DNA of 46,101 nt, from positions 1 to 46,101 of the forward strand of contig JAKLKB010000039.1 of NCBI GenBank assembly GCA_023150835.1, written 5' to 3'. The position numbers and the translations under genes are program-made. The notes under the pieces were generated by a model that had not been told where the DNA came from, did no database searches, and worked only from the letters and a program-made list of their open reading frames with translations. Numbering within the stretch: the first letter of the stretch is position 1; the number at the start of each line of letters is the position of its first letter. This document shows positions 15,479 to 43,536 of the stretch, piece by piece. Origin of the DNA: Myxococcota bacterium (GTDB lineage: Bacteria; Myxococcota_C; UBA6777).

Positions 15479-15602
15479 CACGAGACTTGCAACAGCACAC
15501 CATACACAACGCCCACGAACACCGCCTACGTGGAAGTCTGTGGGAGTCCGAAGCCGCGCAACGATGGAACGGATCAACACACCACGCAAAGGAGTACAGC
15601 CT

Positions 15603-23824: not shown

Positions 23825-23937
23825 CACGAGATCCGCAGGGCGTGTGATCGCAAAGCGTAGGGGCAGACAGGTGTGGCTGCCCAACAATCGGGTGTCTACG
23901 CACTCTCCTACGGGAACACTTCACACGGATATCGTAT
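23825..23937 (+). repeat. F1 MITE-like element, copy c
   Basis: Full-length F1 (left end ACGAGATCCGCAGGGCGTGTG, right end CACACGGATATCGTATCAC) between the two paralogous outer-membrane genes. The core hairpin here reads GGGCAGACAGGTGTGGCTGCCC, close to copy h. Confidence 0.8.
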
Positions 23938-23978
23938 CACAACCCCCCAAAGACCGCAGATCCATAGGAGCGCAGACT

Positions 23979-24894: not shown

Positions 24895-26535
24895 TTAGTG
24901 CGTAGGCATCTTGCGGCGTCCGTTGCCAAACGCCTCTCTTCGGGGCTTTCGGGCCTCTTTTGTTGCGGGGATTGTTTGCGAGGGAAGAGGGAGAGTCGAT
25001 GTTTTTTTCGGGATAGCGGGCTTTTTTGGAAGAGCCACAGGAGCGCGCAACGGATCGATCTGATCACCATAGACCTCGCGGAAGATCTCTCGAACTTTGA
25101 GGCGCAGATGGGCTGTGTGCTCGATCGGAGTATATTCGGACTGGCCTTCGGCTTCGCTATCGAGCGCAAAGGTCATGTACGTCGAATCGGCGATCGTGAT
25201 CACCGAAGGTACGCGCCCTTCAGCTTTTAGCGCGATCAACATACTGCGAAATTGCTCAAGACGCGGCTGGAGCAGTTTGCGGCGCTTGGTGAACAGATCT
25301 TGGTCCCACTCGGGATCGGACCCTGCGGTGCGCTTAAACTGATCCGTCGAGTCCACCGAGGCGAAATAATCCAGATCGAGATCGAGCGTGAACCGCCCTT
25401 TGGGGATCGCCTGTAACAGTTGCGCGAACATCTGCGCCCCTTCTCCCTTGCCTGCGCTTGTGATGGCGGTATCGGAGGTCAAGATCGACAGCCAAAACGG
25501 GCGAAACAGATCGAACTTCTCCGCAACAGGCCGCTGTGCGGGCTGGATCGTGATCCACGCATCACCCATCCCAACAGCGGGCTTCTTCGGCTCCATCTGC
25601 GGATCGTAATACAGCCGATAATGCGAGCGTTTGGACTCCGCTTCTTTGATCTCACGCGCTTGTTTTTTGGCTTTGGCTGCCGACCAACGCGGGTCCGCCA
25701 AAAAAGTGGGGGTTCCTTTTTTCGGAACTCCAAAGAAAAAGCGCCGATTGAGAAACTCGGTGTAGCCGTTCCAAGAAGGCTTGCCCCAGATCACCCGATC
25801 ATACCCCGCTGTCAAAACCCCCCCCGCAACGGGCATCGCGCAATCATAGATCGCGTGGGCGATCGTGTGCCATGCGTCTTTTACGTTCACGCCACGCTTC
25901 AACTGATCCACCGCCTTCAACACGGCACTTGGACTGGGCACAGCCCGCATATCGTTGTGTGTATCGAGGTGAAACAACGGCCCCACATCGCGGCGTTGGC
26001 TTTCCTTGATCCAAAACGGCACAGACAGGTGATGCCCGTTGACCTCGTACACAGGGATGGCCGCATATTCGGCTTGTTCATTTTGGACGGGATAGAGGCG
26101 CGCACCGAGCATATACAGATGCTTCCAACGCGCTACCGTCCGCCAGTCTGTGGACTCTTTGCGCAAACGCTCGTGCAAACCGCGCAGCTTTCGCAACAAA
26201 AAAACATCCATCTGCTTTCCCAAACGTGGAAAAGCCCGTCGGATCGTAATCAAGCAATCCACTTCACGAAACGCACCATGAAAATCCCCATCCCCCCGAA
26301 CTTCTGCACACAACTCTTCTGGCGCAACGTTGTTCTTCCCAAGCAACGAACCTCGGATATCGGCCACAGAAGCCAGCGGGATCGGCTGCGGCCCACGCTG
26401 CCACCACCACGCCGAAGCCCCCAACAAACACACCAAAAAACCGCACGACACAAAGCCGCGCCACCACACCGAAGACAAGGACGCCCCTGCTTGCGCATGA
26501 TGCGCAGGCATCGATGGCGGATACATCTGACTCAT
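24895..26535 (-). CDS. UPF0489-like protein with N-terminal membrane anchor
   Basis: 546 residues from ATG 26535, with GGAG 4 nt upstream. One TM segment (about 22-46, WWRGFVSCGFLVCLLGASAWWW) is followed by a large domain with HLDTHNDM (189-195), CAMPVAGGV...YDRVIWGKPSW and DLDLDYF (384-390). These Asp/His motifs recall the UPF0489 family (human C5orf22) and the metal sites of arginase-like enzymes, so a metal-dependent hydrolase is possible; no activity is established. The C-terminal ~60 residues are Lys/Pro/Arg-rich. It lies 121 bp downstream of an acyl-CoA ligase gene on the same strand and may belong to that operon. Confidence 0.72.
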   Translation of the reverse strand: MSQMYPPSMPAHHAQAGASLSSVWWRGFVSCGFLVCLLGASAWWWQRGPQPIPLASVADIRGSLLGKNNVAPEELCAEVRGDGDFHGAFREVDCLITIRRAFPRLGKQMDVFLLRKLRGLHERLRKESTDWRTVARWKHLYMLGARLYPVQNEQAEYAAIPVYEVNGHHLSVPFWIKESQRRDVGPLFHLDTHNDMRAVPSPSAVLKAVDQLKRGVNVKDAWHTIAHAIYDCAMPVAGGVLTAGYDRVIWGKPSWNGYTEFLNRRFFFGVPKKGTPTFLADPRWSAAKAKKQAREIKEAESKRSHYRLYYDPQMEPKKPAVGMGDAWITIQPAQRPVAEKFDLFRPFWLSILTSDTAITSAGKGEGAQMFAQLLQAIPKGRFTLDLDLDYFASVDSTDQFKRTAGSDPEWDQDLFTKRRKLLQPRLEQFRSMLIALKAEGRVPSVITIADSTYMTFALDSEAEGQSEYTPIEHTAHLRLKVREIFREVYGDQIDPLRAPVALPKKPAIPKKTSTLPLPSQTIPATKEARKPRREAFGNGRRKMPTH

Positions 26536-26656
26536 CGATCTCCACACTCTTGTCGCCAACGTACAACCCATTCCGTCCGAATCAAGCGTCGATCCGAACC
26601 TTTGCCTTTGACGCATCCGAGCATACACCGACAGCCTTTGAAATCAACCCTCCGCT

Positions 26657-28207
26657 CTAGATCTTGATCGGCTTGGGCAGTTCGTGATCAAACCGCGCCT
26701 TGATCGCCTTTTTGTCGAGCTTTCCTGCACTTGTCTTTGGAAGAGCCTCCGAAAAGACCACGTAGCGGGGGATCTTGTAGCGTGCAAGATGCGCTTGCGC
26801 GTACCGCAAGATATCTTGCTCGGTGCATCCCGCCCCTTCCTCTCGGCGGATCAGAGCCAGTCCGACCTCTCCCCAACGCGCATCCGCAACCCCCACCACA
26901 GCGGCCTCTGCAACCCCCTCCGCCTCATGCAACACACTTTCGATCTCCGCAGGATACACATTCTCGCCGCCGCTGATGTACATATCCTTGAGGCGCCCCA
27001 CGATGCTCACGTATCCTTCGGCATCCACACGCACCAGATCGCCCGTATGCAGCCAACCTTCGCGCAACACCTCCGCGCTTGCTTCGGGACGCTGCCAATA
27101 CCCCGCCATCACATGCGGACCACGCAAACAAAGCTCACCCACTTCGTCCGCTCCCACGCGGCTTCCGTCTTCATCGATCACTTTGATCTCGACGTGCATC
27201 AACGGAAACCCTACAGCACCCGGCTTTCTCTCGATGTCCTCTTTCGGCAACCAAAAGTTATTCGGTCCCGCTTCTGTTAGCCCATAACCCGTCTTAAAAT
27301 GTACGCCTTTTTCCCAAAATCGCTCAAACACCGGCAACGGACACGGCGCACCCCCACTGATCACAAACTTCGTCCCCGAAAAATCCGCTGCTTTCCAGCG
27401 CGGATCTTCTTGCATCAAAATAAACATCGTCGGAACGCCAAAAAACACCGTCACACCTTGGTCGCGCACCAAGTCAAACACCATCCCGACCTCAAAACCT
27501 TTGCAAACAATCGATGTGCCACCCGCATACACCAACGGCGTCGTAAAGACGTTCAATCCGCCCACATGGAACAACGGGGCATTGAGGATCGCCACATCAT
27601 GCGCATCCAACTCCCAACTGATGATCGTGTTGATCGCGTTCGCAAGGATGTTTCCGTGTGTCAGGGTCGCCCCTTTTGGAAGCCCCGTTGTTCCGCCTGT
27701 ATAGCAGATCAACCACGGATCATCCGGCGCGATCGACACAGGCAACAGAGACTCTCGCTCGTCCATCGCCTCCGAAACCGAAAGCAACGGATCTTGCGAA
27801 CGTATCGCCTTCGTCAATGCGATCCACGTCCCGACCTCAGCCCGACTTCCCTGTAGCGAACGCACCGCATCCCCAAATTCTTCTCCGTAGATCAACGCAA
27901 CAGGCCGACACTCCGCGATAAGCGCATCCAACTCACGCACCTGCAAACGCCAATTCAAATTCTGCAAGATCGCCCCAAGGCGACCACAAGCAAAGAACAC
28001 ATCGAGATACTCGATGCAATTCATCGCCAAGATCGCCACACGATCGCCCTTTCCTACACCCAACGTCTTTTGCAGAGACAACGCCAGCCGTTGCACTTGC
28101 TGATCCCACGCCCGATAAGACACCTGCCGACCTGTTGCTTGATCGATCAAGGCGGTCTTTTCAGGGCTGAGTTGCGCCCTTTTGCGCAGCCAATCCGCAA
28201 CAAACAT
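26657..28207 (-). CDS. AMP-dependent acyl-CoA synthetase
   Basis: 516 residues from ATG 28207, with GGAGG 5 nt upstream. Family motifs are complete: P-loop YTGGTTGLPKG (169-179), GYGLTEAGPN, GWLHTGDLVRVD, GRLKDMYISGGENVYPAEIE and a C-terminal PKTSAGKLDKKA with the adenylation Lys. It activates a carboxylic acid to acyl-AMP then acyl-CoA; chain length cannot be read from the sequence, though the layout is of the medium/long-chain type. It starts 12 nt after the symporter stop, so they are co-transcribed. Confidence 0.93.
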   Translation of the reverse strand: MFVADWLRKRAQLSPEKTALIDQATGRQVSYRAWDQQVQRLALSLQKTLGVGKGDRVAILAMNCIEYLDVFFACGRLGAILQNLNWRLQVRELDALIAECRPVALIYGEEFGDAVRSLQGSRAEVGTWIALTKAIRSQDPLLSVSEAMDERESLLPVSIAPDDPWLICYTGGTTGLPKGATLTHGNILANAINTIISWELDAHDVAILNAPLFHVGGLNVFTTPLVYAGGTSIVCKGFEVGMVFDLVRDQGVTVFFGVPTMFILMQEDPRWKAADFSGTKFVISGGAPCPLPVFERFWEKGVHFKTGYGLTEAGPNNFWLPKEDIERKPGAVGFPLMHVEIKVIDEDGSRVGADEVGELCLRGPHVMAGYWQRPEASAEVLREGWLHTGDLVRVDAEGYVSIVGRLKDMYISGGENVYPAEIESVLHEAEGVAEAAVVGVADARWGEVGLALIRREEGAGCTEQDILRYAQAHLARYKIPRYVVFSEALPKTSAGKLDKKAIKARFDHELPKPIKI

Positions 28208-28219
28208 CCAAACCTCCGC

Positions 28220-29815
28220 TCAATTTGCAATCTCCGAAACATCCGCACGATCCCCGATCAGATACATCGCAGCGATCACAGCCCATCCCGAAAAAGTCGC
28301 CATCGTCGCCAAAAACGCCGGATTGTTGTGCATAAACGAGATCTTTCCAAACGCCACCGCAAAGTAAGCCACCGTCGAGGCCACCGTACCTATCACGATC
28401 GCACGCCGCGACACCTTCGGAAAAAACATTCCACACGCCAACGGCAAAAACGATACCGTAAAAAGCAAGTACACACCGTACTGACCAAAGATCGCCACCG
28501 ACCGCCCTGTCGGGTTCTTGAGTTGCGCAAAACTTAACCACAACGCCAAGATCCCCAAAAATACCATCCCCACGCGCCCAAACCACATTGCACGCTTCGC
28601 ACGAGCCGCTTCTTCCGCTTCATCTTTCGCTGCTTTGCGCTGCAATCCCAGATACAGATCGTTTGAAAAGATCGTAGACAACGCCAACAAGATCCCTTCG
28701 AGCGTCGATATCCCCGCAGCCAACAACCCCACGCTAATCAACACCTGCGCAGCCGCCGAAAAATTCTGCGCGATATACACGATCACCACCGTGTCGAAGT
28801 TGTGCTGCCCCTTCAACGTCACACGCGCATACAACCCCACCAACATCACCAACATAAACACCACACCCGCCAAAAGCCCCACCAACAAATACGTCCGAAC
28901 ATCTCGCTCTTCTTTGAGATACAACGCTTTGCTCACGATATGCGGCTGGCACACGATCGCACATCCCACCACAAAGTTACATACAAACACCTCAAAAAAG
29001 TTCCGAAAATACAGCGACTTTGGATTGGTGATCTGCGCGAGTTCTGGCTGGATCGCAGCCAACTTCCCAAACAGGCCGCCCTCTTGGAAAAACAGATGTA
29101 CTCCGCTACCGATCATCATCAACGCCACCACCAACATGATAATCGCTTGGATCGTGTTCGTGTACGCGCTGGTGTTCGCACCACCCAACATCACATACGA
29201 AAACACAAAAACCACCGCCCCCACCGCCAAGACCTGCTGATAAAACAGGGCTTGTTCCGCCGCTGTACGGATATTCCAACCATACAACAGCCTAGTGATC
29301 ACACCCAGTTCCTGTCCGCTGTGTGCGGCCTCTTTCATCGACACAAGCGGCGGGATCAACATCACAAACAACACCTTGGCGATGGCAACGACGATCAACA
29401 CCACAAAACTCACCAACGCCAACGACAAGATCGCAAAAAAGATCCGCAACCCCCGCGACTGGTAGCGCGTCCCGATCCACTGCGGAACCGACAACGCCGC
29501 AACCCGCGTCCCCATCGCACGAAAGCGATTCGAGAAAAACACCAGCCCCAAGATAATCCCCAACGACGCAGCGCCTCCCATCCCCAAAAGACCCGATATC
29601 CCGTAAGCATAGATCAACCCGGGATTCACCACAAACGTCGCAACACTCGTCAATTGGGCCGTCAAAGAAAGACCCACAAAGGCAGGGTGGATATCCCGAC
29701 TCCCCACCGCAAAGTTCTTCAGCGAATCGGTCTTCAACAAACCGCGTACCGTCAACCATACCGTCACCGCAACATACAGGCTCAACGCAAGCCAAGCCAT
29801 CTGAAATTTGGTCAT
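28220..29815 (-). CDS. Sodium/solute symporter (SSS family)
   Basis: 531 residues, with about 13 hydrophobic helices spread over the whole length. SSS-type features include FAVGSRDIHPAFVGLSLTAQ, the GGAASLGIILG and GGANTSAYTNTIQA segments, and GLLAAGISTLEGILLALSTI. The family imports solutes such as proline, pantothenate or small carboxylates with sodium. Its position between two acyl-CoA ligase genes suggests a carboxylate substrate (inference). ATG 29815 begins the first helix; its SD (AAAGAGA) is moderate. An F2 element separates it from the upstream ligase. Confidence 0.9.
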   Translation of the reverse strand: MTKFQMAWLALSLYVAVTVWLTVRGLLKTDSLKNFAVGSRDIHPAFVGLSLTAQLTSVATFVVNPGLIYAYGISGLLGMGGAASLGIILGLVFFSNRFRAMGTRVAALSVPQWIGTRYQSRGLRIFFAILSLALVSFVVLIVVAIAKVLFVMLIPPLVSMKEAAHSGQELGVITRLLYGWNIRTAAEQALFYQQVLAVGAVVFVFSYVMLGGANTSAYTNTIQAIIMLVVALMMIGSGVHLFFQEGGLFGKLAAIQPELAQITNPKSLYFRNFFEVFVCNFVVGCAIVCQPHIVSKALYLKEERDVRTYLLVGLLAGVVFMLVMLVGLYARVTLKGQHNFDTVVIVYIAQNFSAAAQVLISVGLLAAGISTLEGILLALSTIFSNDLYLGLQRKAAKDEAEEAARAKRAMWFGRVGMVFLGILALWLSFAQLKNPTGRSVAIFGQYGVYLLFTVSFLPLACGMFFPKVSRRAIVIGTVASTVAYFAVAFGKISFMHNNPAFLATMATFSGWAVIAAMYLIGDRADVSEIAN

Positions 29816-29844
29816 CGAGACATCTCTTTCGTTGGGGATAGGAG

Positions 29845-29975
29845 TGCCAAAAAAAAGCCGTGTTCGTGCCGCTTGAAGCGACAGAGTCGTTGGTTTGAAA
29901 AATAGGGATCTCTTCGCCAAACACGGGGTCCATAGAGCCGCGCTCCCTTGTGGAGTGGGGTGAAACCCCACAAAA
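29845..29975 (+). repeat. F2 repeat, copy 2
   Basis: GCCGTGTTCG near the left end, GTTTGAAAAATAGGGATCTC in the middle, AACACGGGGTCC, and the terminal hairpin GTGGGGTGAAACCCCAC (29955-29971). It fills the gap between the symporter start and the upstream ligase stop, so it would be transcribed within the operon in antisense orientation. Confidence 0.8.
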
Positions 29976-30013
29976 ACCATCAAAACTGCGTGAGTTCTAT
30001 GGGTTAAGAAAAA

Positions 30014-31528
30014 TTAATAAATCCCAAGGCGTTTTTTGACTTCTGCTTTGATCACTTTTCCCGAAGCATTCAAGGGCAATTCTTGTACAAAATGATAGTG
30101 CTTCGGCATCTTGTAGCGTGCCAACCGCACATCCAAAAAGGCGTGGAGAGCTTCGCTTGTCAAACCTTCTGTGCGCGGCACGATCACCGCAACAGGGACT
30201 TCTCCCCAACGCTCCTCCGATTGCCCGACCACCGACGCCATCGCAACATCAGGGTGACCTGCCAAAAGCTTTTCGATCTCCGCAGGATAGATATTCTCTC
30301 CCCCGCTGATGATCATGTCTTTTTTGCGATCGACGATCGTCAAAAACCCTTCTTCATCAAAACGCCCGATATCGCCCGTGTGCAACCAACCCTTGCGGAT
30401 GGTCTTCGCCGTCTCTTCGGGCAGATTCCAATATCCCTTCATCACATTCGGACCGCGCACGACGATCTCGCCAGACTCTCCCGTCGGAAGGGCGTTTCCA
30501 TCGTCATCCACCACCTTGACCTCTGTGTACAAGATCTGCCGCCCTGCACTACCCGCCTTGCGTAAACACTCGCCCGGACCCATCCCCGTCACTCCCGGGG
30601 CCGCTTCGGTCAGCCCGTACCCTTGGCGAAACTCTAAGCCCCGCGCATGGTACAATTGAATCAACGACTCCGACAACGGCGCACCTCCGCTCAACAGCAC
30701 TTGGCACGAACCAAAGTTCGTCTCCGCAAAACGCGGATGATCCGCCATCAAACGAAAGATCGTTGGGACCCCTACCACTCCCGTCACACGGTCTTTTTCG
30801 ATCGATGCCAACACCGCACCCGCATCAAACTTTTGCTGCAAGATCACCGTCGCCCCAACATGCAACATCGGTGTCACCGAGCCATTCAACCCGCCCACAT
30901 GAAACAGCGGCAACAGCACCAAACACACCGTATCTGGCGAAACGCCCAACGACCAGCCGTTGATCGTCTGCCAAAACACATTGCTATGCGTCAACACCAC
31001 ACCTTTGGGATTCCCCGTCGTGCCGGACGTATAGATGATCATCAAGTCATCATCTCCTCCACCCACAGGATCGCCCAACGGTGACTCTCCTTCGCCTCGC
31101 AAGGCGGCTTCATACGCCGATCCTTCCAAGGTTTCGGCGACTTCCGTCAACACAGGCGCTTGTTCCATCCGCCCCGCCAAGCTGCGCGCTCGTTCTGTCC
31201 AACGCCCCGCATAGATCAAAGAACGAGGCGTACAATCGCGCAAGATATACGCAAGCTCGTCCTCCCCCAAACGCCAATTCAGCGGCACATAAATCGCCCC
31301 GATCTGCGCACAAGCAAACAACACCTCGATCATCTCCGCGCAGTTCGGCAACAACACCGCTACGCGATCTCCTTGCCCCACCCCTTGCCCCTTCAACAAC
31401 GCCGCCAGTTGACTCATCCGATGCGAAAGCGTCGTATAACTCCACGCATGGCGCTCATCTTGAACCGCCAGCTTTTTCCGATACAACGCCGCATTCCGCT
31501 CGATCCATGTCGCAATATTGATCCGCAT
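30014..31528 (-). CDS. AMP-dependent acyl-CoA synthetase (second)
   Basis: 504 residues from ATG 31528, with GGGAGAGAG directly upstream. Complete adenylate-forming motifs: YTSGTTGNPKG (166-176), GYGLTEAAPG, GWLHTGDIGRFDEEG, DRKKDMIISGGENIYPAEIE and LNASGKVIKAEVKK. It resembles the other ligase in this window throughout, so the pair are paralogs, perhaps for different acids. Only 42 nt separate it from the phasin-like gene, which suggests a shared transcript from the divergent promoter at about 32055-32083. Confidence 0.93.
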   Translation of the reverse strand: MRINIATWIERNAALYRKKLAVQDERHAWSYTTLSHRMSQLAALLKGQGVGQGDRVAVLLPNCAEMIEVLFACAQIGAIYVPLNWRLGEDELAYILRDCTPRSLIYAGRWTERARSLAGRMEQAPVLTEVAETLEGSAYEAALRGEGESPLGDPVGGGDDDLMIIYTSGTTGNPKGVVLTHSNVFWQTINGWSLGVSPDTVCLVLLPLFHVGGLNGSVTPMLHVGATVILQQKFDAGAVLASIEKDRVTGVVGVPTIFRLMADHPRFAETNFGSCQVLLSGGAPLSESLIQLYHARGLEFRQGYGLTEAAPGVTGMGPGECLRKAGSAGRQILYTEVKVVDDDGNALPTGESGEIVVRGPNVMKGYWNLPEETAKTIRKGWLHTGDIGRFDEEGFLTIVDRKKDMIISGGENIYPAEIEKLLAGHPDVAMASVVGQSEERWGEVPVAVIVPRTEGLTSEALHAFLDVRLARYKMPKHYHFVQELPLNASGKVIKAEVKKRLGIY

Positions 31529-31570
31529 CTCTCTCTCCCATCCTCAAAAATCGAAGCCATCCCGAACGAT

Positions 31571-32008
31571 CTACAGCAAAGCCAAAGCATCCGACGTCGC
31601 CTCCTCGCCGATCGAGGCTTCGTCTAAACGTTTTTTGGATGAGGCATCCAGTTGCTCGTGCATCTGCGCCACTTGGGTTTGAAGTTGTTCGATCATCCCG
31701 ATTAACCGAGCGATCTCTTCTGTTCGCCGTTGTTGGCCTGTGCGGAGTTCGTCCATCAGATCCTCCACTTCCGCCAACAAACGCTGTACACCGTGCATCA
31801 CCTTGAGCTGATGGCTGCGCATCGCTACGCCTAGCTGCGAAAGCAACAGATCACGCGTCTGCTCGACCATCCGCAGATTCCGCATCACCCCCCCCAAAAG
31901 CCCTGCGGATGCACGCAAAAAGGTATCGCTTTGTACCACCCGCTCGATCCGTTCGTTGGCCTTCAACGCCAACCGATCAAAACGCGGCTTCCAGTATCGC
32001 TCAAACAT
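31571..32008 (-). CDS. Phasin/PhaE-like coiled-coil protein
   Basis: 145 residues from ATG 32008, with AGAGGA upstream; the frame continues to 32125 but crosses the promoter region. The protein is almost wholly helical, with heptad patterning in its C-terminal half (VQRLLAEVEDLMDELRTGQQ, IARLIGMIEQLQTQVAQMHE). No family motif is certain. Its divergence from phaR, position before acyl-CoA ligase genes and amphipathic helices suggest a granule-associated phasin or a short PhaE-type synthase partner (inference). Confidence 0.65.
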   Translation of the reverse strand: MFERYWKPRFDRLALKANERIERVVQSDTFLRASAGLLGGVMRNLRMVEQTRDLLLSQLGVAMRSHQLKVMHGVQRLLAEVEDLMDELRTGQQRRTEEIARLIGMIEQLQTQVAQMHEQLDASSKKRLDEASIGEEATSDALALL

Positions 32009-32054
32009 CTTCGTCTTTCCTCTCGTTTGACACTTCCCTCCAAAACGCCGCTGA

Positions 32055-32083
32055 GCATAACCAAGCCCCCATCGCGCTGTCAA
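32055..32083 (-). promoter_or_regulatory. Strong sigma-70-like promoter of the minus-strand arm
   Basis: On the minus strand TTGACA (32083-32078) is followed after 17 bp by TTATGC (32060-32055). A transcript from here would have a leader of roughly 40 nt before the ATG at 32008. The -35 box nearly touches the 25-bp palindrome, so a bound repressor would block it. Confidence 0.65.
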
Positions 32084-32085
32084 GC

Positions 32086-32110
32086 TATTTTTGTGCATTG
32101 CACAAAAATA
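32086..32110. promoter_or_regulatory. 25-bp perfect palindrome, candidate PhaR operator
   Basis: 32086-32110 is a perfect inverted repeat with core TTTTTGTGCA-T-TGCACAAAAA. The half-site GCACAAA recurs at about 32119-32127, 32250-32256 and 32274-32280, on the phaR side. PhaR regulators elsewhere bind TGC-containing sequences. Placement between two divergent promoters fits a shared operator for phaR autoregulation and the phasin/ligase arm. Confidence 0.6.
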
Positions 32111-32133
32111 TGCTGCAAAGCACAAAAATGTAC

Positions 32134-32162
32134 TTGACTTTCACAACGGATTGCTGCATACC
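32134..32162 (+). promoter_or_regulatory. Candidate promoter of phaR
   Basis: TTGACT (32134-32139) and CATACC (32157-32162) are 17 bp apart. The -10 is weak. The leader to the phaR ATG would be about 120 nt and would include two further GCACAAA sites. Confidence 0.45.
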
Positions 32163-32290
32163 CAATCAAGCCAGTCAGACGGGCGGCTTGGCCGCAAACA
32201 ATGCAAGCCCAAAACCGTCCACGATCGCAGAAAAGGCCGCCATCAAAGCGCACAAAACACGCTTTTTTGCAGCGCACAAAGGAATCTCCG

Positions 32291-32875
32291 ATGAAGAAAC
32301 AAGGACCGGTAGAGATCCGCAAATACTCGAACCGTCGCTTGTACAACACCCAAGAAAGCTGCTACATCACGCTGCAAGATCTCGCGCAGATGATCCAAGA
32401 CGGCCTTGATGTCCAAGTCCTCGACGCCAAAACAGGCGAAGATCTCACACGCGCCATCATGTTGCAGATCATCTGCGAAAACAAAGCGCAGCAAGAAGCC
32501 CTTCCGATCTCCTTTTTGCGCCAAGTCATCCAAGCAGGCGATAAGGCCGTCCGTTCCTCGATCCGCAGCTACCTCTCGATGGGATGGCAGGCTCAACGCG
32601 AAGTCCAACGCCAGATCGGCCATTGGGCCCGCGCTGCCATGATGATGAATCCGCTGCTCGCTCCCTTTCTGGCCGCACAACGCGATTACAGCTCATCCCC
32701 CAACGCAAACCGCCACGATCTCGCTCCCATCCCCACACCACAACTGCCTCAAATCCTCCCTCCCACCGACGATGACGGCTCGCCTTGGGAACAGATCGAA
32801 CGCTTACGGCTTCAACTTGCCGCCATGCAAGCCCAGATCGACGCCATGACACAAGAACACGACGGTGCGGGATAA
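32291..32875 (+). CDS. phaR: PHA synthesis repressor PhaR
   Basis: 194 residues from ATG 32291, with AAAGGA 7 nt upstream. The N-terminal block (IRKYSNRRLYNTQESCYITL, residues 9-28) is the PHB accumulation regulator DNA-binding domain. It is followed by the PHB-binding/accumulation region (DAKTGEDLTRAIMLQIICEN, FLRQVIQAGDKAVRSSIRSY). The C-terminus has a Pro-rich spacer and an amphipathic helix (IERLRLQLAAMQAQIDAM). PhaR binds nascent polymer and, when free, represses phasin genes and itself. It heads the plus-strand PHA arm. Confidence 0.94.
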   Translation: MKKQGPVEIRKYSNRRLYNTQESCYITLQDLAQMIQDGLDVQVLDAKTGEDLTRAIMLQIICENKAQQEALPISFLRQVIQAGDKAVRSSIRSYLSMGWQAQREVQRQIGHWARAAMMMNPLLAPFLAAQRDYSSSPNANRHDLAPIPTPQLPQILPPTDDDGSPWEQIERLRLQLAAMQAQIDAMTQEHDGAG

Positions 32876-32965
32876 TCCCCCCATCACCTATCCACCCCAT
32901 CCAAAGAAAGGACGGCGCTTCCTCCCCCCCCTCGTTCATAAGGGGGTCTCCGCGCCGAAAAATCG

Positions 32966-33271
32966 ATGACACAACAGACGGAATCCAAACAAAAAAAACC
33001 TTTGCTTCGCCGCGTTTTTCGCCTTGGTATGGCCCTCAGCGGCATCGACACCATGCGCCAGATCGCCCGTCCCCTCGCTCAGATCGCAGCCAACAACCTC
33101 GAACAAGGATTGCAACTTCAACAAGCCCTCTGGGCGCGCACCGCTGAAGCCCTCCAATCCTCACAAGAAGCCAGTCTCCATCATCTCCGACGCATCGCCG
33201 AGATCAACACTCGCCTCACCGAAACGCTGCGCGACAAGATCAAAGGCATGGCCGATCCCGGTACACACTAG
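32966..33271 (+). CDS. Small phasin-like helical protein
   Basis: 101 residues with a basic N-terminus (KQKKPLLRRVFRLGMAL) and a long amphipathic helical stretch (IAANNLEQGLQLQQALWART). Its length and composition suit a small granule-binding protein. No SD is obvious; a G-run hairpin (about 32921-32943) precedes it, and an F1 element begins 2 nt after its stop. Its place between phaR and phaC is the main support for the function. Confidence 0.6.
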   Translation: MTQQTESKQKKPLLRRVFRLGMALSGIDTMRQIARPLAQIAANNLEQGLQLQQALWARTAEALQSSQEASLHHLRRIAEINTRLTETLRDKIKGMADPGTH

Positions 33272-33272
33272 G

Positions 33273-33384
33273 ACGAAATCCGTCTATTGTGTCAACACAA
33301 CGTATCGGGGAAGCCCCCTGTAGCTGTCCAATCACAGGGCGTCTCCGCGCTCTCCTTCGATCACACATCACTCGGATTTCGTAT
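33273..33384 (+). repeat. F1 MITE-like element, copy d
   Basis: Begins ACGAAATCCGTCTATTGTGT and ends CATCACTCGGATTTCGTAT. The left half is diverged and its core hairpin is degraded. It is followed within a few bases by F2 copy 3, so the phasin-like gene and phaC are separated by two elements back to back. Confidence 0.7.
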
Positions 33385-33387
33385 TAT

Positions 33388-33525
33388 GCCGCATTTCAAA
33401 AACCCCGTGTTCGCTGCCCCTCAAGCGGTGCCTTCGTTGGTTTGAAAAACCTCTGATCGCTCCGCCAATACGGGGTCAAGGGGGCGGCTCTCCCTTGCGG
33501 GGTGTGGGGCCGCGCCCCACAAAGA
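33388..33525 (+). repeat. F2 repeat, copy 3
   Basis: CCCCGTGTTCG at the left, GTTTGAAAAA in the middle, AATACGGGG pairing back to the left end, terminal hairpin GTGGGGCCGCGCCCCAC (33504-33520). The strong hairpins could attenuate transcription into phaC (inference). Confidence 0.8.
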
Positions 33526-33592
33526 CAGAACAATAGAGACAAACTGAACTCTTTCCAAGATGCCCTATCGACGGACGAAAAAGGAGTCTTGC

Positions 33593-34675
33593 TTGCTCAC
33601 GATCTTCAAAAAAGCGACCCATGCCTTCGGCCAAGCGGCCTCTATCCTTGGCGAAGAAGCCCGCAATCTCGGTCGCCGCACACGCAATAGTGCGCGGCTG
33701 CTTCGCACGCCCTACCCGATGGGCGTGACACCTTATGATGTCGTGTTGCAACGCAACAAAATGAAGCTGCTCGCCTTTCACCGCCTCGGCCCTGAACGCG
33801 AAACCACCCGTCGTCCCGTCCTGATCGTCCCCTCCCTAATCAATCGCTACTACATCCTCGATCTCCAAAAAGGCAAAAGCTTTGTCGAATACCTTTCTCA
33901 ACAAGGCTTTCCTGTCTACGTCATGGATTGGGGCCGTCCCGGTCCAGAAGACGCAGAAGTCGACTTTTCGGAGATCGTCGACTCTTTGATCCACGCTGCT
34001 GTACGCAAAGTTTGTGCGTTGCACCATCAAGAAAGCGTCCACCTGATCGGCCACTGCGTCGGCGGGCTGCTCACGCTTACCTACGCAGCCCTTTATCCCG
34101 AGCGCGTCCGCACCCTACTCAATCTCACCACCCCCGTCGATCTCCGCAAAGGCGGTATCTTGGGGCGTTGGACCTCTGGCGAATGGATGGATCCTGACCT
34201 TGTGGTCGATACCTTTGGCAATGCCCCTTGGCCCCTGCTTCAAGCATCCTTTCAGATGCTTGTCCCCCTCGGTATGTTGATGCGCAACGTCTGGATCTAC
34301 GAACAACTCCCCAACGACAATCTCATCGAAAACATCCGCGCCATGGAAACATGGTCCAATGACAACGTTTCCATCCCGGGCGCTTTTTTTCGCAGCTTTA
34401 TTCGAGATCTTTATCAGAAAAATGCCCTCTACGAAGGAACCTTCTCGCTTAACGGACGCCGAGTGGATCTGCGCAGCTTGCGTCAGCCCGTGATGAACAT
34501 CTCATGCCAAGCCGATCACATCGCCCCCCCCGAAAGCGTTGCAGCCCTCAAAGACCTCCTGCCACACACGCAGGATATCGCGATCCCGGGCGGCCATGTC
34601 TCCGTCGTCGCCAGCTCGCGTGCCGTCAAGACTGTCTGGCCGCAGATCCGCCAGTTCTTTGAAGACGCGGCCTAG
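33593..34675 (+). CDS. phaC: Poly(hydroxyalkanoate) synthase, PhaC class III-like
   Basis: 360 residues from TTG 33593, which has AAAAAGGAG 6 nt upstream; ATG 33560 has no SD and would add 11 residues. PHA synthases join hydroxyacyl-CoA into polyester at the granule surface. The lipase-like box GHCVGG gives catalytic Cys155, with Asp308 (CQADHIAPP) and His335 (GGHVSVV), a spacing close to the class III enzyme of Allochromatium vinosum as I recall it. Length also fits class III, which needs a PhaE partner; none is certain here, but the two helical proteins nearby are candidates. Other PhaC blocks are PVYVMDWGRPG and DNLIENIRAMETWSNDN-like. Confidence 0.92.
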   Translation: MLTIFKKATHAFGQAASILGEEARNLGRRTRNSARLLRTPYPMGVTPYDVVLQRNKMKLLAFHRLGPERETTRRPVLIVPSLINRYYILDLQKGKSFVEYLSQQGFPVYVMDWGRPGPEDAEVDFSEIVDSLIHAAVRKVCALHHQESVHLIGHCVGGLLTLTYAALYPERVRTLLNLTTPVDLRKGGILGRWTSGEWMDPDLVVDTFGNAPWPLLQASFQMLVPLGMLMRNVWIYEQLPNDNLIENIRAMETWSNDNVSIPGAFFRSFIRDLYQKNALYEGTFSLNGRRVDLRSLRQPVMNISCQADHIAPPESVAALKDLLPHTQDIAIPGGHVSVVASSRAVKTVWPQIRQFFEDAA

Positions 34676-34757
34676 TCCCTCGAACGCATCGATGCTGTCG
34701 CTTCGGTGCGCCCTTTTGGACCCCAGCGATCATCCCACAGGATGATGGGAGAAACCC

Positions 34758-35897
34758 ATGCTTGAATCACTTGGACTTTTCGGGCTACCCTTCGCATGGT
34801 CACGCGAGATCGCCAAATGGACCCGCACACAGATCCACCGCCACGAAGTCTTTTTGGACAACACCCTGCTCAAAGAACCCGCCAAACCCGCGTGGAGCAG
34901 CCCCAACAAGATCGTGTGGGAACTGCCTAGCCTGCGCCTGCGCGACTTTAGCGAAGATCCCGAAAGCTCGGACATCCCGACTCTTTTGATCAACCCGCAA
35001 GTCAACAGCTCCTACATCTGTGACTACGCCCCGGGACAAAGTCTGATGATGACCCTGCGCGAACAGGGCCTCAAACGCCTGTACGCCGTGGACTGGAAGA
35101 GCGCAACGCTCGAACGTGCCGATGAAACCTTGGATGATGCACTTTGGGCTTTGCACAGCGTGATCGATCATCTCGGTGGCCGCGTGCGTTTGATCGGCTT
35201 GTGCCAAGGCGGATGGATGTCTTTGATGCTCTCTGCCTTATTCCCCCACAAGATCGACAGCGTCGTGTTGGCGGCTGCCCCCATCGACTTTCACGCAGAA
35301 CCCGGCGTGATCAACGTCCTCGCACGTTATGTCTATCCCATGGCTTTCTACGAAGCCCTCGTTGCGATGGGCGGCGGCATCATGCGCGGAGAGATGATCA
35401 GCACAGGTTTCAACAATATGCGACCTTTTGAACGCTACGTCCTCAAATACATCGACCTCTACGCCCACATCGACGATCAAGACTACGTCGCACGCTACCG
35501 CGAACTCGACAACTGGTACGCGTTGGCCCAACATATCCCGGGGGCGACTTACCTGCGGATCGTCAAAGAACTCTTCAAAGAAAATCGCATGGTTTGCGGC
35601 ACGATGATCTGTTGTGATCGCCCGCTCGACTTGAAACATGTCACTTGCCCCGTCCTCATGATCGCCGGTCTGCGCGACCATATCACCTTGCCGGGTCAAC
35701 TCTTTGCAGCCGAACAATACGTCGGCACACAAGAAACTTATCGCTTTACCACAGACGCCGGACATGTGGGCGTCTTTATGAGCAAACGCGCCCTGCGCGA
35801 TGTCTGGCCCAAGGTCGTTGCGGTCCTTCAACAAACCTCTCACGCAACCCAGCCTCCGGCACAGATGATCACCGAACCACCGCGCTTTCAAGCCTAA
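34758..35897 (+). CDS. PhaC-like alpha/beta hydrolase, second synthase paralog
   Basis: 379 residues from ATG 34758, with GGGAG 6 nt upstream, 82 bp after phaC. It has a synthase-type nucleophile box, GLCQGG (Cys149), with Asp307 (LRDHITLP) and His336 (AGHVGVFMSK). Sequence outside these blocks differs clearly from the upstream PhaC (for example PQVNSSYICDYAPGQSLM). A Cys rather than Ser nucleophile argues for polymerisation over depolymerisation. It may be a divergent synthase, or a partner that modifies activity or specificity. Confidence 0.82.
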   Translation: MLESLGLFGLPFAWSREIAKWTRTQIHRHEVFLDNTLLKEPAKPAWSSPNKIVWELPSLRLRDFSEDPESSDIPTLLINPQVNSSYICDYAPGQSLMMTLREQGLKRLYAVDWKSATLERADETLDDALWALHSVIDHLGGRVRLIGLCQGGWMSLMLSALFPHKIDSVVLAAAPIDFHAEPGVINVLARYVYPMAFYEALVAMGGGIMRGEMISTGFNNMRPFERYVLKYIDLYAHIDDQDYVARYRELDNWYALAQHIPGATYLRIVKELFKENRMVCGTMICCDRPLDLKHVTCPVLMIAGLRDHITLPGQLFAAEQYVGTQETYRFTTDAGHVGVFMSKRALRDVWPKVVAVLQQTSHATQPPAQMITEPPRFQA

Positions 35898-35918
35898 ACC
35901 CTAACCGAGAGATCGGCG

Positions 35919-37184
35919 ATGCAATCCAACACCTCCTTCGTCCCTTTTGCTTGGCGTCCCTTTGGGATCATGTCTTGCTTTTGTCTGTTTTCGCTTGGCT
36001 TCTTTTTCTTACAAGGATGTCCCAACGAGACGACAAAAACTTGCTCCCAAGACACCGATTGCCCCTCCGGGCAGATCTGTAAACAAAGCCGTTGCGAAGC
36101 CACCAGCGCAGGATGCAGCACAGACAAGGATTGCCCCGCTGAAAAACAATGCGTCCAGCAGATCTGCAAAGACAAACAACCTGCTTGCCAAAACAACAGC
36201 ACCTGCAAACAAGGCGAAGTCTGCCTCCAAGGTCGCTGTCAACCCCAGCTTTGCACCGATGATCGCAGCTGCCCTGCTGGACAACGCTGTCAAGGCGGAA
36301 GCTGCGTCTCTTCCGAGTCTTCAGAGGAGATCACCCCCAACGAAAAACTTCCCAACGACGGCGGAAGTGAACCCATCCCCGAATCCACTTCCGACACACC
36401 GCCCACCGAAACCACCTCCGAGAACACGCCCGATACGACGCCCGTTTGCGTCCCCAACCGCAACGGCATCATCGAACGCAACGAGCTCACCTTCCGTATC
36501 GGCGCAGCCATCAGCTACACCGCTGCGGGAACCGAAAGCGCCCCTGTGGATGTCGACTTGAAAGGCACCCAAGGCACCGACGGCATCGTGACGTGGGACT
36601 TTAGCAAAAAATTTCCCGACGATAGCCGTGAAATAGATGAAGTCTTGCCCTACAAAGGCCAATGGTTTGAAGGCGATATCCTTGATCCGATCCCCGAATA
36701 TACCTCTATCCTGACACGAAATTATCCTCTTGTCGGTGTCATCCTTGCGGCGTATCGGCCCACTCCTGACGCTCTCCAGATGCTCGGTTGGTACTCCCAA
36801 GAAAAAGATCGCGCCAAGGTCAAATACAACCAACCCGTCGAGATCCTGCAATTCCCGCTCAAACTCGGCGACTCTTGGCTCAACAAACCCACCGCCAAAG
36901 GCTCCTTTCCCAAAAACTTGACCCTCTATAGCGCCAGCGAAGACTACGAATTCAACGTCGACGCCAAAGGCAAAGCCAAACTCCCCGCAGGAACCTACGA
37001 TGTCTTGCGCCTTCGGATGAAGTTTAGCCAAACACAAACCCTACCTGCTTTTGCGAGCCTTTCACGCATCACTTACTTCTTTATCGCAGAGTGTTTTGGC
37101 ATCGTTGCCCGCGTTGATAGCAAGCTCTACGAAAGCGACGAAAACTTTACCAAAGCCAGCCGCCTCAAACGATTGAGCGACTAG
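35919..37184 (+). CDS. Cys-rich lipoprotein with EF-hand-like NRNGIIExxE domain
   Basis: 421 residues. The signal peptide ends in the lipobox LQGC (Cys34). Residues ~40-130 hold four Cys-rich repeats of the form CxxDxDCPxGQxCxxxxC. A Thr/Glu/Pro-rich spacer (~135-170) leads to a ~240-residue domain starting CVPNRNGIIERNELTF, a calcium-site-like motif. This last domain is shared with the lipoprotein at 40192-41079 (WDFxK, PxxILQFPLKLGDSW vs PVPLLRFPLRDGKEW, AECxGxIARxxS). The gene begins 21 nt after the PhaC-like gene. Function unknown; probably outer membrane. Confidence 0.82.
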   Translation: MQSNTSFVPFAWRPFGIMSCFCLFSLGFFFLQGCPNETTKTCSQDTDCPSGQICKQSRCEATSAGCSTDKDCPAEKQCVQQICKDKQPACQNNSTCKQGEVCLQGRCQPQLCTDDRSCPAGQRCQGGSCVSSESSEEITPNEKLPNDGGSEPIPESTSDTPPTETTSENTPDTTPVCVPNRNGIIERNELTFRIGAAISYTAAGTESAPVDVDLKGTQGTDGIVTWDFSKKFPDDSREIDEVLPYKGQWFEGDILDPIPEYTSILTRNYPLVGVILAAYRPTPDALQMLGWYSQEKDRAKVKYNQPVEILQFPLKLGDSWLNKPTAKGSFPKNLTLYSASEDYEFNVDAKGKAKLPAGTYDVLRLRMKFSQTQTLPAFASLSRITYFFIAECFGIVARVDSKLYESDENFTKASRLKRLSD

Positions 37185-37218
37185 CTTTCGATCACACCCT
37201 GAGCCGATCTTGGATGCC

Positions 37219-37331
37219 ACGAGATCCACCCGTTGTGTGATCGCAAAACGTCGGGGTAGCAAGATGTGGCTGCCCAACAACAGGGCGTCTACGCACGACC
37301 CGACGATCACACATCTCTCGGATCTTGTATT
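37219..37331 (+). repeat. F1 MITE-like element, copy e
   Basis: Begins ACGAGATCCACCCGTTGTGT and ends ATCTCTCGGATCTTGTAT. Most of the 175-bp gap between the lipoprotein and the hydrolase gene is this element, and its right end stops 28 bp before the hydrolase ATG. Confidence 0.78.
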
Positions 37332-37359
37332 ACAGGTGTTTTCCGCTGTTGGAGCCGTG

Positions 37360-38334: not shown

Positions 38335-38377
38335 AATTGGGCCTGTAAGCATGCTTATTCTTTTAGGAGCCACGCCG

Positions 38378-38512
38378 TTGACAAAAAATCCCCACGTTCG
38401 CGGCACTTCAAGCGGCAGGGCTGTTGGTTTGAAAAACACCTGTGTACTCCGCCAATACGGGGTCCATCGAGCCGCGCTCTATGGCGGGGCGTGGGGCAAT
38501 GCCCCACAACGC
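38378..38512 (+). repeat. F2 repeat, copy 4, inside a coding region
   Basis: CCCCACGTTCGCGGC at the left, GTTTGAAAAACACC in the middle, AATACGGGGTCC, terminal hairpin GTGGGGCAATGCCCCAC (38491-38507). It is open in the frame of the downstream barrel protein. Confidence 0.8.
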
Positions 38513-40191: not shown

Positions 40192-41079
40192 ATGAAACCA
40201 ACACTCTCGCTGTTTGTTTTTCTTCTGCTTGCCTGCTTGATCCTCCCGATATTCGGGTGTCCTGATCCGACTCCCCAAAAAGAGCAGACGACGCAACAAG
40301 ACGGCGCTCCCACCGAAGAGATCACCACCCTCCCCGATGATCCACCCGAACGATGTGTCGGAAACAACGACGGGATCATCGAACTCAAAGAAGTGGCCTT
40401 TGTGGTCGGCGCAAGCGTCAACGTCTTGCGCAACAAAGCCGGAACCACCGTCCAAGTCAATCAACAAGGCAACCGAGACAACGAAGGCAACCTTGTTTGG
40501 GACTTCCGCAAACTGCCGCTCGATCAAAAAGATGCCGTCCGCACCGTCGATCCCACAGGAAAGTGGTTTTTGTCCGACTTTCCCGATGCCACGCTCTTGA
40601 TCCCCATCGTCTACCAAGGCTTTTCAGGCATCTCTTATCAAGTCTTACGAAAGACTCCGACGGATCTTCTGCTCGATGGCATCGTCTCCGATCTCGAACA
40701 ACCCGAGCAAGAAAAGATCTCGCTCAAATACGAAACGCCCGTCCCCCTCCTGCGTTTCCCTTTGCGCGATGGCAAGGAGTGGATCGTCGTCTCCAAAGCC
40801 AAAGGCAGCGTCGCAGGACAACCTCTCACCTCCACAGACACCTACCAGATCCGCGTCGCAGGCCGAGGAATCCTCAAGATCCCTGACATCGAGTTCCAAA
40901 ATGCCCTCCGCATCGAGATATCTGTTCAACAGCGTTTGCTCGGTGGCAACAGCCGTACAATTTACCAGATCCTCTATATGGCCGAATGCTACGGCGAGAT
41001 CGCACGCATCGAATCCGTCGAAAATGAAAAAGATCCCGCCTTTACCCAAGCCTCTCTTGCTCGCTTCCTCACCTTCTAA
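40192..41079 (+). CDS. Lipoprotein with CxxNxDGIIExxE domain (paralog of 35919-37184)
   Basis: 295 residues from ATG 40192, 11 nt after the barrel gene. The signal peptide ends in the lipobox IFGC (Cys23). After a Thr/Gln/Pro-rich spacer, the domain starting RCVGNNDGIIELKEVAF matches the C-terminal domain of the lipoprotein at 35919-37184, without its Cys-rich repeats. Shared blocks include VWDFRK, PLLRFPLRDGKEW and AECYGEIARIES. Close packing suggests co-transcription with the barrel gene. Function unknown. Confidence 0.82.
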   Translation: MKPTLSLFVFLLLACLILPIFGCPDPTPQKEQTTQQDGAPTEEITTLPDDPPERCVGNNDGIIELKEVAFVVGASVNVLRNKAGTTVQVNQQGNRDNEGNLVWDFRKLPLDQKDAVRTVDPTGKWFLSDFPDATLLIPIVYQGFSGISYQVLRKTPTDLLLDGIVSDLEQPEQEKISLKYETPVPLLRFPLRDGKEWIVVSKAKGSVAGQPLTSTDTYQIRVAGRGILKIPDIEFQNALRIEISVQQRLLGGNSRTIYQILYMAECYGEIARIESVENEKDPAFTQASLARFLTF

Positions 41080-41173: not shown

Positions 41174-41343
41174 CACCACTCTGCCGCCGAGACAGGCGCG
41201 GATGCTGTTTTTTTTGCCCGCTGCATCCTCCTGATCGATGCGAATTTCTCTCGCTTGCGCTTTTGCCAAAGATATCCTACGCTGTGGGGACTTTGCCGTT
41301 GTTTTTGGCTGCCCTCGTTTCCCTGCACCGCGTAAGAGAATGT

Positions 41344-41535
41344 ATGCGAACTACCCTTTGGATCTTGCTTGGCTGCTTTGCGCTCTCGCCAACAGCCCAC
41401 GCACAACCCATCTCGGACTGCGCTCAACGATGCGCAAAAGACTGTTTCCAAAAAGCCGATTCGACCGACCCCTGCGCGACCTTGCGCTGCTCGGTATTCT
41501 GCAAAAAAACTTCCCGACGACAAACACTTCGATGA
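41344..41535 (+). pseudogene. Truncated copy of the small Cys-rich secreted protein
   Basis: 63 residues beginning MRTTLWILLGCFALSPTAHA. It matches the first ~63 residues of the 164-residue protein at 43028-43522 (signal peptide, DCxxRCxKDC, ATLRCSVxCKK), then stops after RRQTLR. The distance to the next ATG is 207 bp against 509 bp in the other copy, consistent with an internal deletion of about 302 bp. The SD (AGGAGG in the intact copy) is also degraded here to AGAGA. It is probably a decaying duplicate. Confidence 0.75.
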
Positions 41536-41550
41536 ACCAAGAGGACGGCC

Positions 41551-42897
41551 ATGCGAAACCATCACGCTCCACCCCTGCACGTGATCCTCATCAGTCTGCT
41601 ATTTGCTTTTTCCATCTTCGGCTATCTCGAAGCCTGCGGCCCCCAAGCCACCTCTTGTAAAGCAGACAGCGATTGCAGCGCCCAAGAATATTGCGCACCA
41701 ACCAGCGGACAAAGCATCTGCACCAAACGCTCCGAGTCTATCCAAGACGGCAGTCCTGACGCAGATCCTCAGCCCGATACCCCCACCCAGACAGGCTGCG
41801 ATATCCCTGCTTATGATCCCACCAAAGATCCCGGCAACGGTGGAACAACCCTCCAACTCGACCAGATCGATCAGTTTTTTTTCCGAAAACTACGCGAGAT
41901 CTTCTACCTCAGCCAACAATGTAGCGAAAAGATCTGGGGTGGCTCCTACCAACTCCACAAAGTCCCCACTTACATCGCCAACATCGGCTCGAACGAACCC
42001 GGATCTGGAAAAGGCGTGCGCGGCTTTTTGATCAACCACCCCAATCCCCCCCAAGGCAGCACCCTTATTGACACCAAGTCGGTTTTCGGTATCCCCAACG
42101 TCTACGCTTACGACGGCGCGATCAAAGATATCACCCCACCCGGCTTTATGTTCGATCTCCCCATCAACAACACCCCCGTGTACGCCTTTTCTTACGGCAC
42201 AAGCCACGCCACCATCAACCCAACCACAGGAAACCAAGCATTTGCCCTTTACGTCCACGAAGGCTTCCACCGCATCCAAGACTTTGAAGAGGCATGGAAA
42301 TACCCTCAAGGCATCCAAGATCCCACAGGATACCCCTACGACACCGAACAACTCACCCTTGCTTTGCTCGAAGACGCGATCCTCACGGACGGACACAACG
42401 AAAAGATCACCGCCGAACAAGCCCTTCAGTGGTTTTATGCAGCCCGAAAAGAACGCATTAAGCTCGATAACAGCCCCAACAAGCTGATCCAATCCCTCGA
42501 AAACTTTCAAGAATGGCTTGAAGGCACTGCCATGTACAGCGAAATACTCTATCTCAACCTGCTCAAGATCCCCTACCCGCTGAGCGATCCCAATTCCATC
42601 CCCGGTCGCCTTACACTCTTACGCCTCATGCAATCCGATTCCAACGCATCCAAAAAAGACGTCATCGAAACACTGCGCGGAAGATACTACGCAAGCGGCG
42701 CCGCCCAAGGCGTTCTCCTCGAACGCCTCGGCAACAAGACTTGGAAAGACCAGATCCGCAAAAGCCAAACCTTTTATGATATCCTTAATGAACTTTATTC
42801 TGGACTACAAACAGAGAGCATTCTTCATCAAACAAAGACAAAATACGATTACGATGCTCTCAAAAAGATCGGACAAAATCTCGCGGATCGCCGATAA
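41551..42897 (+). CDS. HExxH metallopeptidase-like lipoprotein, copy 1
   Basis: 448 residues from ATG 41551 behind AAGAGGACGGCC. The signal peptide ends at LEAC (Cys29), a probable lipid site. A short Cys block (CKADSDCSAQEYC) and a Pro/Asp/Thr spacer precede a ~350-residue domain. This has HEGFH (236-240), an HExxH zinc motif, and EGTAMYSE (324-331), which could supply the third Glu ligand as in gluzincins. No named peptidase family is recognised. It is highly similar to 43537-45006. Probably an outer-membrane or periplasmic protease; zinc binding and activity are inferred. Confidence 0.82.
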   Translation: MRNHHAPPLHVILISLLFAFSIFGYLEACGPQATSCKADSDCSAQEYCAPTSGQSICTKRSESIQDGSPDADPQPDTPTQTGCDIPAYDPTKDPGNGGTTLQLDQIDQFFFRKLREIFYLSQQCSEKIWGGSYQLHKVPTYIANIGSNEPGSGKGVRGFLINHPNPPQGSTLIDTKSVFGIPNVYAYDGAIKDITPPGFMFDLPINNTPVYAFSYGTSHATINPTTGNQAFALYVHEGFHRIQDFEEAWKYPQGIQDPTGYPYDTEQLTLALLEDAILTDGHNEKITAEQALQWFYAARKERIKLDNSPNKLIQSLENFQEWLEGTAMYSEILYLNLLKIPYPLSDPNSIPGRLTLLRLMQSDSNASKKDVIETLRGRYYASGAAQGVLLERLGNKTWKDQIRKSQTFYDILNELYSGLQTESILHQTKTKYDYDALKKIGQNLADRR

Positions 42898-43027
42898 CTC
42901 CCCTCGACTGTTTGGCCCGAATTTCTCTCGCTTGCGCTCTTGCCAAAGATATCCTACGCTGTTCGAGCTTTGCCTCTCTTTCTTTGCCTGCTGCCCTCGT
43001 TTCTGACCCAACTACACAGGAGGACGT

Positions 43028-43522
43028 ATGCGAATTGCCCTTTGGATCTTGCTTGGCTGCCTTGCGCTTTTGCCAACAGCCCACGCACAGCCCGCCTCGG
43101 ACTGCCCAACACGATGCACAAAAGACTGTATCGAAAAAGCCGATGCTACCGACCCCTACGCGACCTTGCGTTGCTCGGTACTCTGCAAAAAAACTTGCCG
43201 GCGACAAACACTTCGATGCCACCGCCAATGTGAGATGCAACACATCCGCGATCTGCGCTCTTGCAACACACAACCCCCCGCGCAACAGGCCGCTTGCCGC
43301 TTGCTCGCTACACAACAACAACAACGCTGCAAACAAACCTGCCCACCACTTCCGCCCAAACCTGCTGTCTCCCCCCTCTGCATCGCTCTTTGCAAAGAAA
43401 CACAACAACGCTCCACCCAAACCTGCATCACGATCAACGATCCCACGCAGCGAAAAGCCTGCCGTATCCGCAGCAAACAAGCCTTTCAACATTGCTTACG
43501 CCATTGTCATACCACCCATTAA
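43028..43522 (+). CDS. Small Cys-rich secreted protein
   Basis: 164 residues from ATG 43028, with AGGAGG 5 nt upstream. After the signal peptide (RIALWILLGCLALLPTAHAQ) there are about twenty Cys in paired CxxxC spacings (DCPTRCTKDC, RCSVLCKKTC, RCHRQC, RCKQTC, LCIALC, HCLRHC), suggesting several disulphides or metal binding. No named family recognised. It ends 14 nt before the HExxH lipoprotein, and the same pair is duplicated upstream in damaged form, so the two products probably work together. Confidence 0.8.
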   Translation: MRIALWILLGCLALLPTAHAQPASDCPTRCTKDCIEKADATDPYATLRCSVLCKKTCRRQTLRCHRQCEMQHIRDLRSCNTQPPAQQAACRLLATQQQQRCKQTCPPLPPKPAVSPLCIALCKETQQRSTQTCITINDPTQRKACRIRSKQAFQHCLRHCHTTH

Positions 43523-43536
43523 CCAAGAGGACGGCC

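Follow-up and report, generated by a model that had tools for sequence, protein, structure and literature searches.

PhaR is a regulatory switch that detects granules of stored polyester; its operators, its autoregulation and the breadth of its regulons are already known. For Ralstonia eutropha, a 2025 paper used footprinted sites to derive a palindrome around a 1-nt centre, YTKNTGCRNYGCANMAR, as the PhaR motif (PMC12849132), and this published palindrome is the reference motif used here. The repressor layout of Ralstonia phaP1 includes a PhaR site immediately upstream of the -35 box, and phaP3 is activated by PhaR from upstream sites (PMC12849132). PhbF of Herbaspirillum seropedicae represses its own gene (PMC3206438), and titration of a PhaR-type regulator has been described in Sinorhizobium (PMC12542648).

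The locus analyzed here lies in a stretch of 46,101 nucleotides from a Myxococcota bacterium (the window, meaning that whole stretch), where a 282-bp intergenic gap parts phaR and two phaC-like genes on the plus strand from genes for a helical protein, two acyl-CoA ligases and a sodium symporter on the minus strand. Its control region shares with those of R. eutropha phaP1 and phaP3 the degenerate palindromes with a 1-nt centre, the three sites per control region and a site abutting the -35 box, but the Ralstonia regions serve single phasin-gene promoters, with no divergent pair and no attached ligase or symporter genes. Herbaspirillum PhbF is likewise a tetramer of the PhaR type that represses phaP1 as well as its own promoter, acting via TG[N]TGC[N]3GCAA (PMC3206438), although in another genomic setting, where the regulated genes are scattered. 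The AniA/PhaR regulon of Sinorhizobium meliloti (PMC12542648) has a palindromic motif whose AT-rich arms resemble those of our site O1 (see below), and includes a computer-predicted PhaR site that separates fadD from a transport gene and may link PhaR to acid activation and transport; this site, however, is not adjacent to phaR, and FadD is given there as unregulated or without a module assignment (PMC12542648). In the Terriglobia locus L112, a FadD-type ligase gene follows phaR at about 115 bp and two PhaR-type sites lie upstream, but the genes are on the same strand, with no symporter and no PhaC found nearby.

The searched open-access literature held no description of a conserved PhaR-type divergent gap that joins synthase genes to a symporter and two ligases. 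An earlier, sequence-only reading of the locus had called the arrangement unfamiliar among described PHA loci, which is fair for the gene set but overlooks the published S. meliloti prediction, which gives a PhaR role in acid activation a measure of precedent.

Predicted PhaR sites in the divergent gap

The features of the gap are as follows:

32054 to 32083, minus strand: predicted sigma-70-like promoter of the minus arm, TTGACA-17-TTATGC or TTGACA-18-TATGCT, with TTGACA at 32083-32078
32086 to 32110: O1, perfect palindrome with the PhaR-motif core at 32090-32106 (17/17), directly upstream of the minus-strand -35 box
32110 to 32126: O2, degenerate PhaR palindrome with 2 mismatches, directly upstream of the plus-strand -35 box
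32134 to 32162, plus strand: predicted promoter of the plus arm, TTGACT (32134-32139), 17 nt, CATACC (32157-32162), with a weak -10 box
32250 to 32256, plus strand: lone half-site GCACAAA, which is GCACAAC in the sister genome G001
32264 to 32280: O3, like the O1 core a full match to the PhaR motif (17/17), next to the ribosome-binding site of phaR

The perfect 25-bp palindrome claimed from sequence inspection is present: TATTTTTGTGCATTGCACAAAAATA, at 32086-32110, consists of two 12-nt arms that are 100% complementary around a 1-nt centre. When up to 3 mismatches are allowed, its extended form, TTTTTGTGCANTGCACAAAAA, is matched once in the window, and 100 shuffles gave no match. The sequence features of a PhaR operator (1-nt centre, TGC-NNN-GCA core and agreement with YTKNTGCRNYGCANMAR) are found without mismatch at 32090-32106 and again at 32264-32280. 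Two exact motif matches in 282 bp compare with 0.003 expected, a count never reached in 600 gap shuffles. When the motif is ignored, odd palindromes with 8-bp arms are not significant in the gap (P about 0.1), and there is no Rfam match.

Five of the 16 window copies of GCACAAA fall inside the gap, namely those at 32120, 32250 and 32274 plus the two palindrome arms. The three former had been described as half-sites repeated towards phaR, and all three exist, but only 32250-32256 stands alone: the copy at 32274 belongs to the complete palindrome 32264-32280 and that at 32120 to the 2-mismatch palindrome 32110-32126.

O1 is located between the two TTGACx promoters, and O1 and O2 each abut one -35 box, their centres 20 bp (about two turns) apart and near -50 relative to each predicted start, while the O3 centre lies 154-174 bp beyond those of O2 and O1. 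The proposed divergent promoter pair holds in that both hexamer sets exist; in its plus-strand member the -10 box is poor, and this promoter is missing from the promoter-scan output. The position of the sites, at the promoter of phaR and granule genes and kept in relatives, is also that of PhaR operators. Together with the conservation and the wider motif comparison described below, this gives good support to a PhaR-bound divergent operator region made up of predicted sites.

Genes of the two arms

The genes of the plus arm, followed by those of the minus arm, are:

32291 to 32875, plus strand: phaR, 194 aa, PHB_acc_N DNA-binding domain and predicted helical C-terminus
32966 to 33271, plus strand: small ORF, 101 aa, matching no family, a candidate for a phasin or for a partner of the synthases
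33560 to 34675, plus strand: PhaC-like synthase 1, class III-like, lipase-box GHCVGG, start codon uncertain
34758 to 35897, plus strand: PhaC-like synthase 2, lipase-box GLCQGG, TIGR01836 175 bits (cut-off 365)
35919 to 37184, plus strand: Cys-rich predicted lipoprotein, which comes after phaC2 in relatives
31571 to 32008, minus strand: helical protein, 145 aa, all-helical, coiled-coil-type, first gene of the minus arm
30014 to 31528, minus strand: acyl-CoA ligase 1, fatty-acid / 4-coumarate type, PF00501 4e-96, PRK06187 above cut-off
28220 to 29818, minus strand: sodium:solute symporter family (SSF) transporter, PF00474 2e-27, TIGR00813 below cut-off
26657 to 28207, minus strand: acyl-CoA ligase 2, PF00501 6e-88

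PhaR belongs to the PHB_acc_N family (PF07879, 94.8 bits with a cut-off of 25, E 3.4e-27). Over nearly the whole TIGR01848 equivalog model it scores 98.2 bits, under the cut-off of 109.45, so the protein is homologous but divergent and its functional equivalence is not certified. The structure model is confident for the N-terminal domain; the C-terminus is helical with lower certainty, and this part has no match to known families. Two PhaC-like genes lie downstream of phaR in three genera, linking it to PHA synthase genes. Synthase 1 reaches 281 bits against the class III model TIGR01836 (cut-off 365), 2e-11 against PhaC_N and 8e-30 against solved PHA synthases; both synthases stay under the TIGR01836 cut-off, yet this is their top-scoring family and both have Cys lipase-boxes.

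The gene content proposed from sequence inspection was right as to PhaR, the two PhaC-like proteins, the two AMP-binding ligases and the SSF symporter, but both proteins called phasin-like lack a phasin-family match: the products of 31571-32008 and 32966-33271 gave none at E up to 1, and the evidence so far does not allow either to be called a phasin. The former is a protein conserved within the family, for which a low-confidence model shows helices throughout and a PDB fold search gave no structural match; small ORFs occupy the position of the latter in G003 and G002. Both ligases belong to the fatty-acid/aromatic-acid type; the nearest solved relatives of ligase 1 are fatty-acyl and feruloyl-CoA synthetases, and the symporter has no solved relative by sequence. 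A search for an acetoacetyl-CoA reductase returned many short-chain dehydrogenases, none above cut-off.

Several other features of the window were recorded. The Cys-rich lipoprotein gene, an odd neighbour in a storage operon, directly follows phaC2 in three genera, and a gene resembling it is found a few kb away, at 40192-41079. A duplicated segment (41241-42072 and 42918-44181, offset 1.7-2.1 kb, 86-94% alike) carries a lipoprotein-like gene. The 9-bp tandem repeat TTCTACCTC occupies 46012-46101 and reaches the contig end, which is probably why the contig stops. There is also an interspersed non-coding repeat family, with about 110-250 bp per copy:

29840-30010, 33272-33519, 13764-13910, 15366-15482, 23825-23941, 37218-37334, 38360-38506 and 45901-46010: repeat copies

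G001 lacks the copy between ligase 1 and the symporter (29840-30010, about 165 bp); of the G001 contigs, one has no copy before phaC1 (33272-33519) and another differs there, so that these copies look like recently mobile MITE-like elements.

Conservation in related genomes

The comparison covered a sister genome of the same genus (G001) and three genomes of the same family (G002, G003 and G004, the last congeneric with G002); in a phylum-level search the family comprises five genomes only, that of the window included. The locus order, with ligase, SSF symporter, ligase and helical protein diverging from phaR, small ORF, two phaC-like genes and lipoprotein, is kept in three genera. G002, seen up to its contig ends, and G003 have both arms in the same order, with enzymes at 52-64% identity.

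The G001 gap is roughly 90% identical, with O1, O2 and O3 unaltered and the lone half-site at 32250 changed. Between genera the intergenic gaps have diverged past alignment, and since MAFFT on the four gaps left the operators unaligned, motif scanning was used instead. In G003, ATATTGCAGTGCAATAT lies beside the minus -35 box and ATTGTGCAAGGCACAAA beside the plus -35 box; motif-class sites (up to 2 mismatches) number 2 vs 0.10 expected (P 0.003). In G002, ATTGTGCGCTGCACAAA lies beside the plus -35 box and further candidate sites lie over both predicted -10 regions; here motif-class sites (up to 2 mismatches) number 3 vs 0.08 expected, a count that none of 600 shuffles attained. Every one of the three genera has at least one PhaR-type palindrome flanked by two divergent TTGACx boxes.

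The sequence-only reading had proposed looking for the palindrome in syntenic relatives. Among the relatives, the sister genome alone has the exact 25-mer, but the two other genera carry different palindromes of this class at equivalent places, and such sequence turnover with site class and place retained is good evidence that the sites are functional. What is observed directly comprises the sites, with their agreement with the PhaR motif, and the conservation of both sites and gene order; the suggestion of a PhaR-type operator common to divergent promoters is borne out by motif identity, local clustering and an architecture kept in three genera. G004 is without phaR, both phaC-like genes, the helical gene and a symporter orthologue; this joint absence fits a unit, and a single assembly gap would look alike.

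Motif distribution in the genome and across phyla

The 7.56-Mb genome holds four exact motif matches, two of them inside this gap, vs six for the reversed control. Exact matches are thus at chance level genome-wide and this gap is the outstanding cluster; a wider PhaR regulon is not claimed. One of the two other matches (C195:38512) is within the coding frame of a phosphatase-type gene. The remaining one (C220:51115) lies between two ATP-grasp-type genes that diverge, on the upstream side of one gene's likely start, with no evident PHA link; it is retained in G001 and may be a further PhaR target or chance. Sites with 1 mismatch also occur inside phaC1, at 33743-33759 and 34011-34027, and recall the within-gene sites of Ralstonia phaP1 and phaP3.

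A wider sample was formed by 77 other phaR loci from alphaproteobacteria, Acidobacteriota and others, which are not independent, many being from Sphingomonadales. With up to 1 mismatch, the 250-bp stretches upstream of phaR (17.9 kb in total) hold 28 sites vs 29 in 1,092 kb elsewhere (1.57 vs 0.027 per kb, a 59-fold density), the reversed control giving 0 upstream in the 77 loci; only 21 of the 77 loci carry such an upstream site. The ligase-symporter-ligase arm is absent from all 77 and, among 80 phaR loci, found in this family only. In Acidobacteriota (L105, L112, L132, L133, L142, L145 and L147), two PhaR-type palindromes accompany phaR, spaced by about 67 bp and in most cases placed at -105 and -37 relative to the start of the match; so fixed an arrangement suggests autoregulation.

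Proposed control of the two arms

The reading we favour, with a probability of roughly 0.65, is that of a PhaR-controlled divergent region in which both arms are repressed at low polymer and freed by titration of PhaR onto polymer. Since the gap sites match the PhaR motif, acid uptake and activation are probably controlled together with granule building. PhaR, the product of the first plus-strand gene, would occupy the two sites between the -35 boxes (O1 and O2) as well as O3 at the ribosome site of its own gene. With polymer scarce, it would repress both arms: bound at O1 and O2 it would hinder polymerase at the promoters beside them, and O3 would serve as an auxiliary operator, possibly via looping, given the tetrameric state of PhaR proteins and the LacI-like layout proposed for Ralstonia phaP1. 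Once polymer forms, PhaR would be titrated onto nascent granules and both arms released, the plus arm yielding PhaR, the PhaC-like synthases and the small protein, and the minus arm the helical protein, the two acyl-CoA ligases and the sodium symporter; the supply of activated acid would thereby be matched to granule growth. By analogy with Ralstonia phaP1, phbF autorepression and Sinorhizobium titration, repression with titration is the most likely mechanism; the binding itself, repression over activation, looping, polymer titration and the identity of the substrate are all inferences. Counting against this explanation are the poor plus-strand -10 box, the repeat between ligase 1 and the symporter in the window's genome, and the genome-wide number of exact motif matches, which does not exceed that of the reversed control; the PhaR score under the TIGR01848 cut-off and the C-terminus without family match count against assuming polymer sensing.

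PhaR could instead control only itself and the granule genes beside the gap, the ligase and symporter genes being mere neighbours with their own control. Autoregulation and phasin control are indeed its classic roles, the restriction of the divergent arm to this family points the same way, and so does the repeat that parts ligase 1 from the symporter, which makes read-through of the minus arm uncertain in the window's genome. We regard this as unlikely given the tight spacing (42 bp from the helical gene to ligase 1, 12 bp from symporter to ligase 2, and about 20 bp between ligase 1 and symporter in G001, at about 23, and in G002), the gene order kept in three genera, and the region 26000-36200, in which the only minus-strand promoter-like site is that beside O1.

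The main alternative on the direction of regulation is that PhaR activates one or both promoters from O1 and O2, whose position at about -50 is also compatible with activation and so counts against the repression reading. Ralstonia phaP3 offers a precedent for activation from upstream sites (PMC12849132), and neither -10 box is strong, as would fit promoters that need help. Sites abutting the -35 box are, however, the repressor layout of Ralstonia phaP1, O3 is downstream of the plus promoter, and the candidate sites over both predicted -10 regions of G002 favour repression; activation is a slightly less probable reading than that of independent neighbours. Palindromic operators are common to many regulators, and the arms here are rich in T and A, but it is very improbable that the palindromes serve another regulator or form a bidirectional terminator hairpin unrelated to PhaR, as there is a full match to a motif from footprinted PhaR sites, found beside phaR in several phyla, and O1, between both -35 boxes and outside both predicted transcripts, could terminate neither.

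Implications for PHA storage

Beyond the proposed PhaR-controlled divergent region, we put forward tentatively, at somewhat less than even odds, that one PhaR switch conserved in a single Myxococcota-like lineage directly couples sodium-driven acid uptake and CoA-activation to granule assembly. With this locus, the PhaR operator code known from alpha- and betaproteobacteria is extended to a Myxococcota-like lineage that is uncultured, and the natural divergent promoter may find use as a polymer sensor in laboratory strains. The locus offers a compact, testable case in which a storage-polymer sensor would control precursor uptake and activation in addition to granule proteins. If this is true, the polymer itself would open its precursor supply, a positive feedback that we have not found described for PHA systems.
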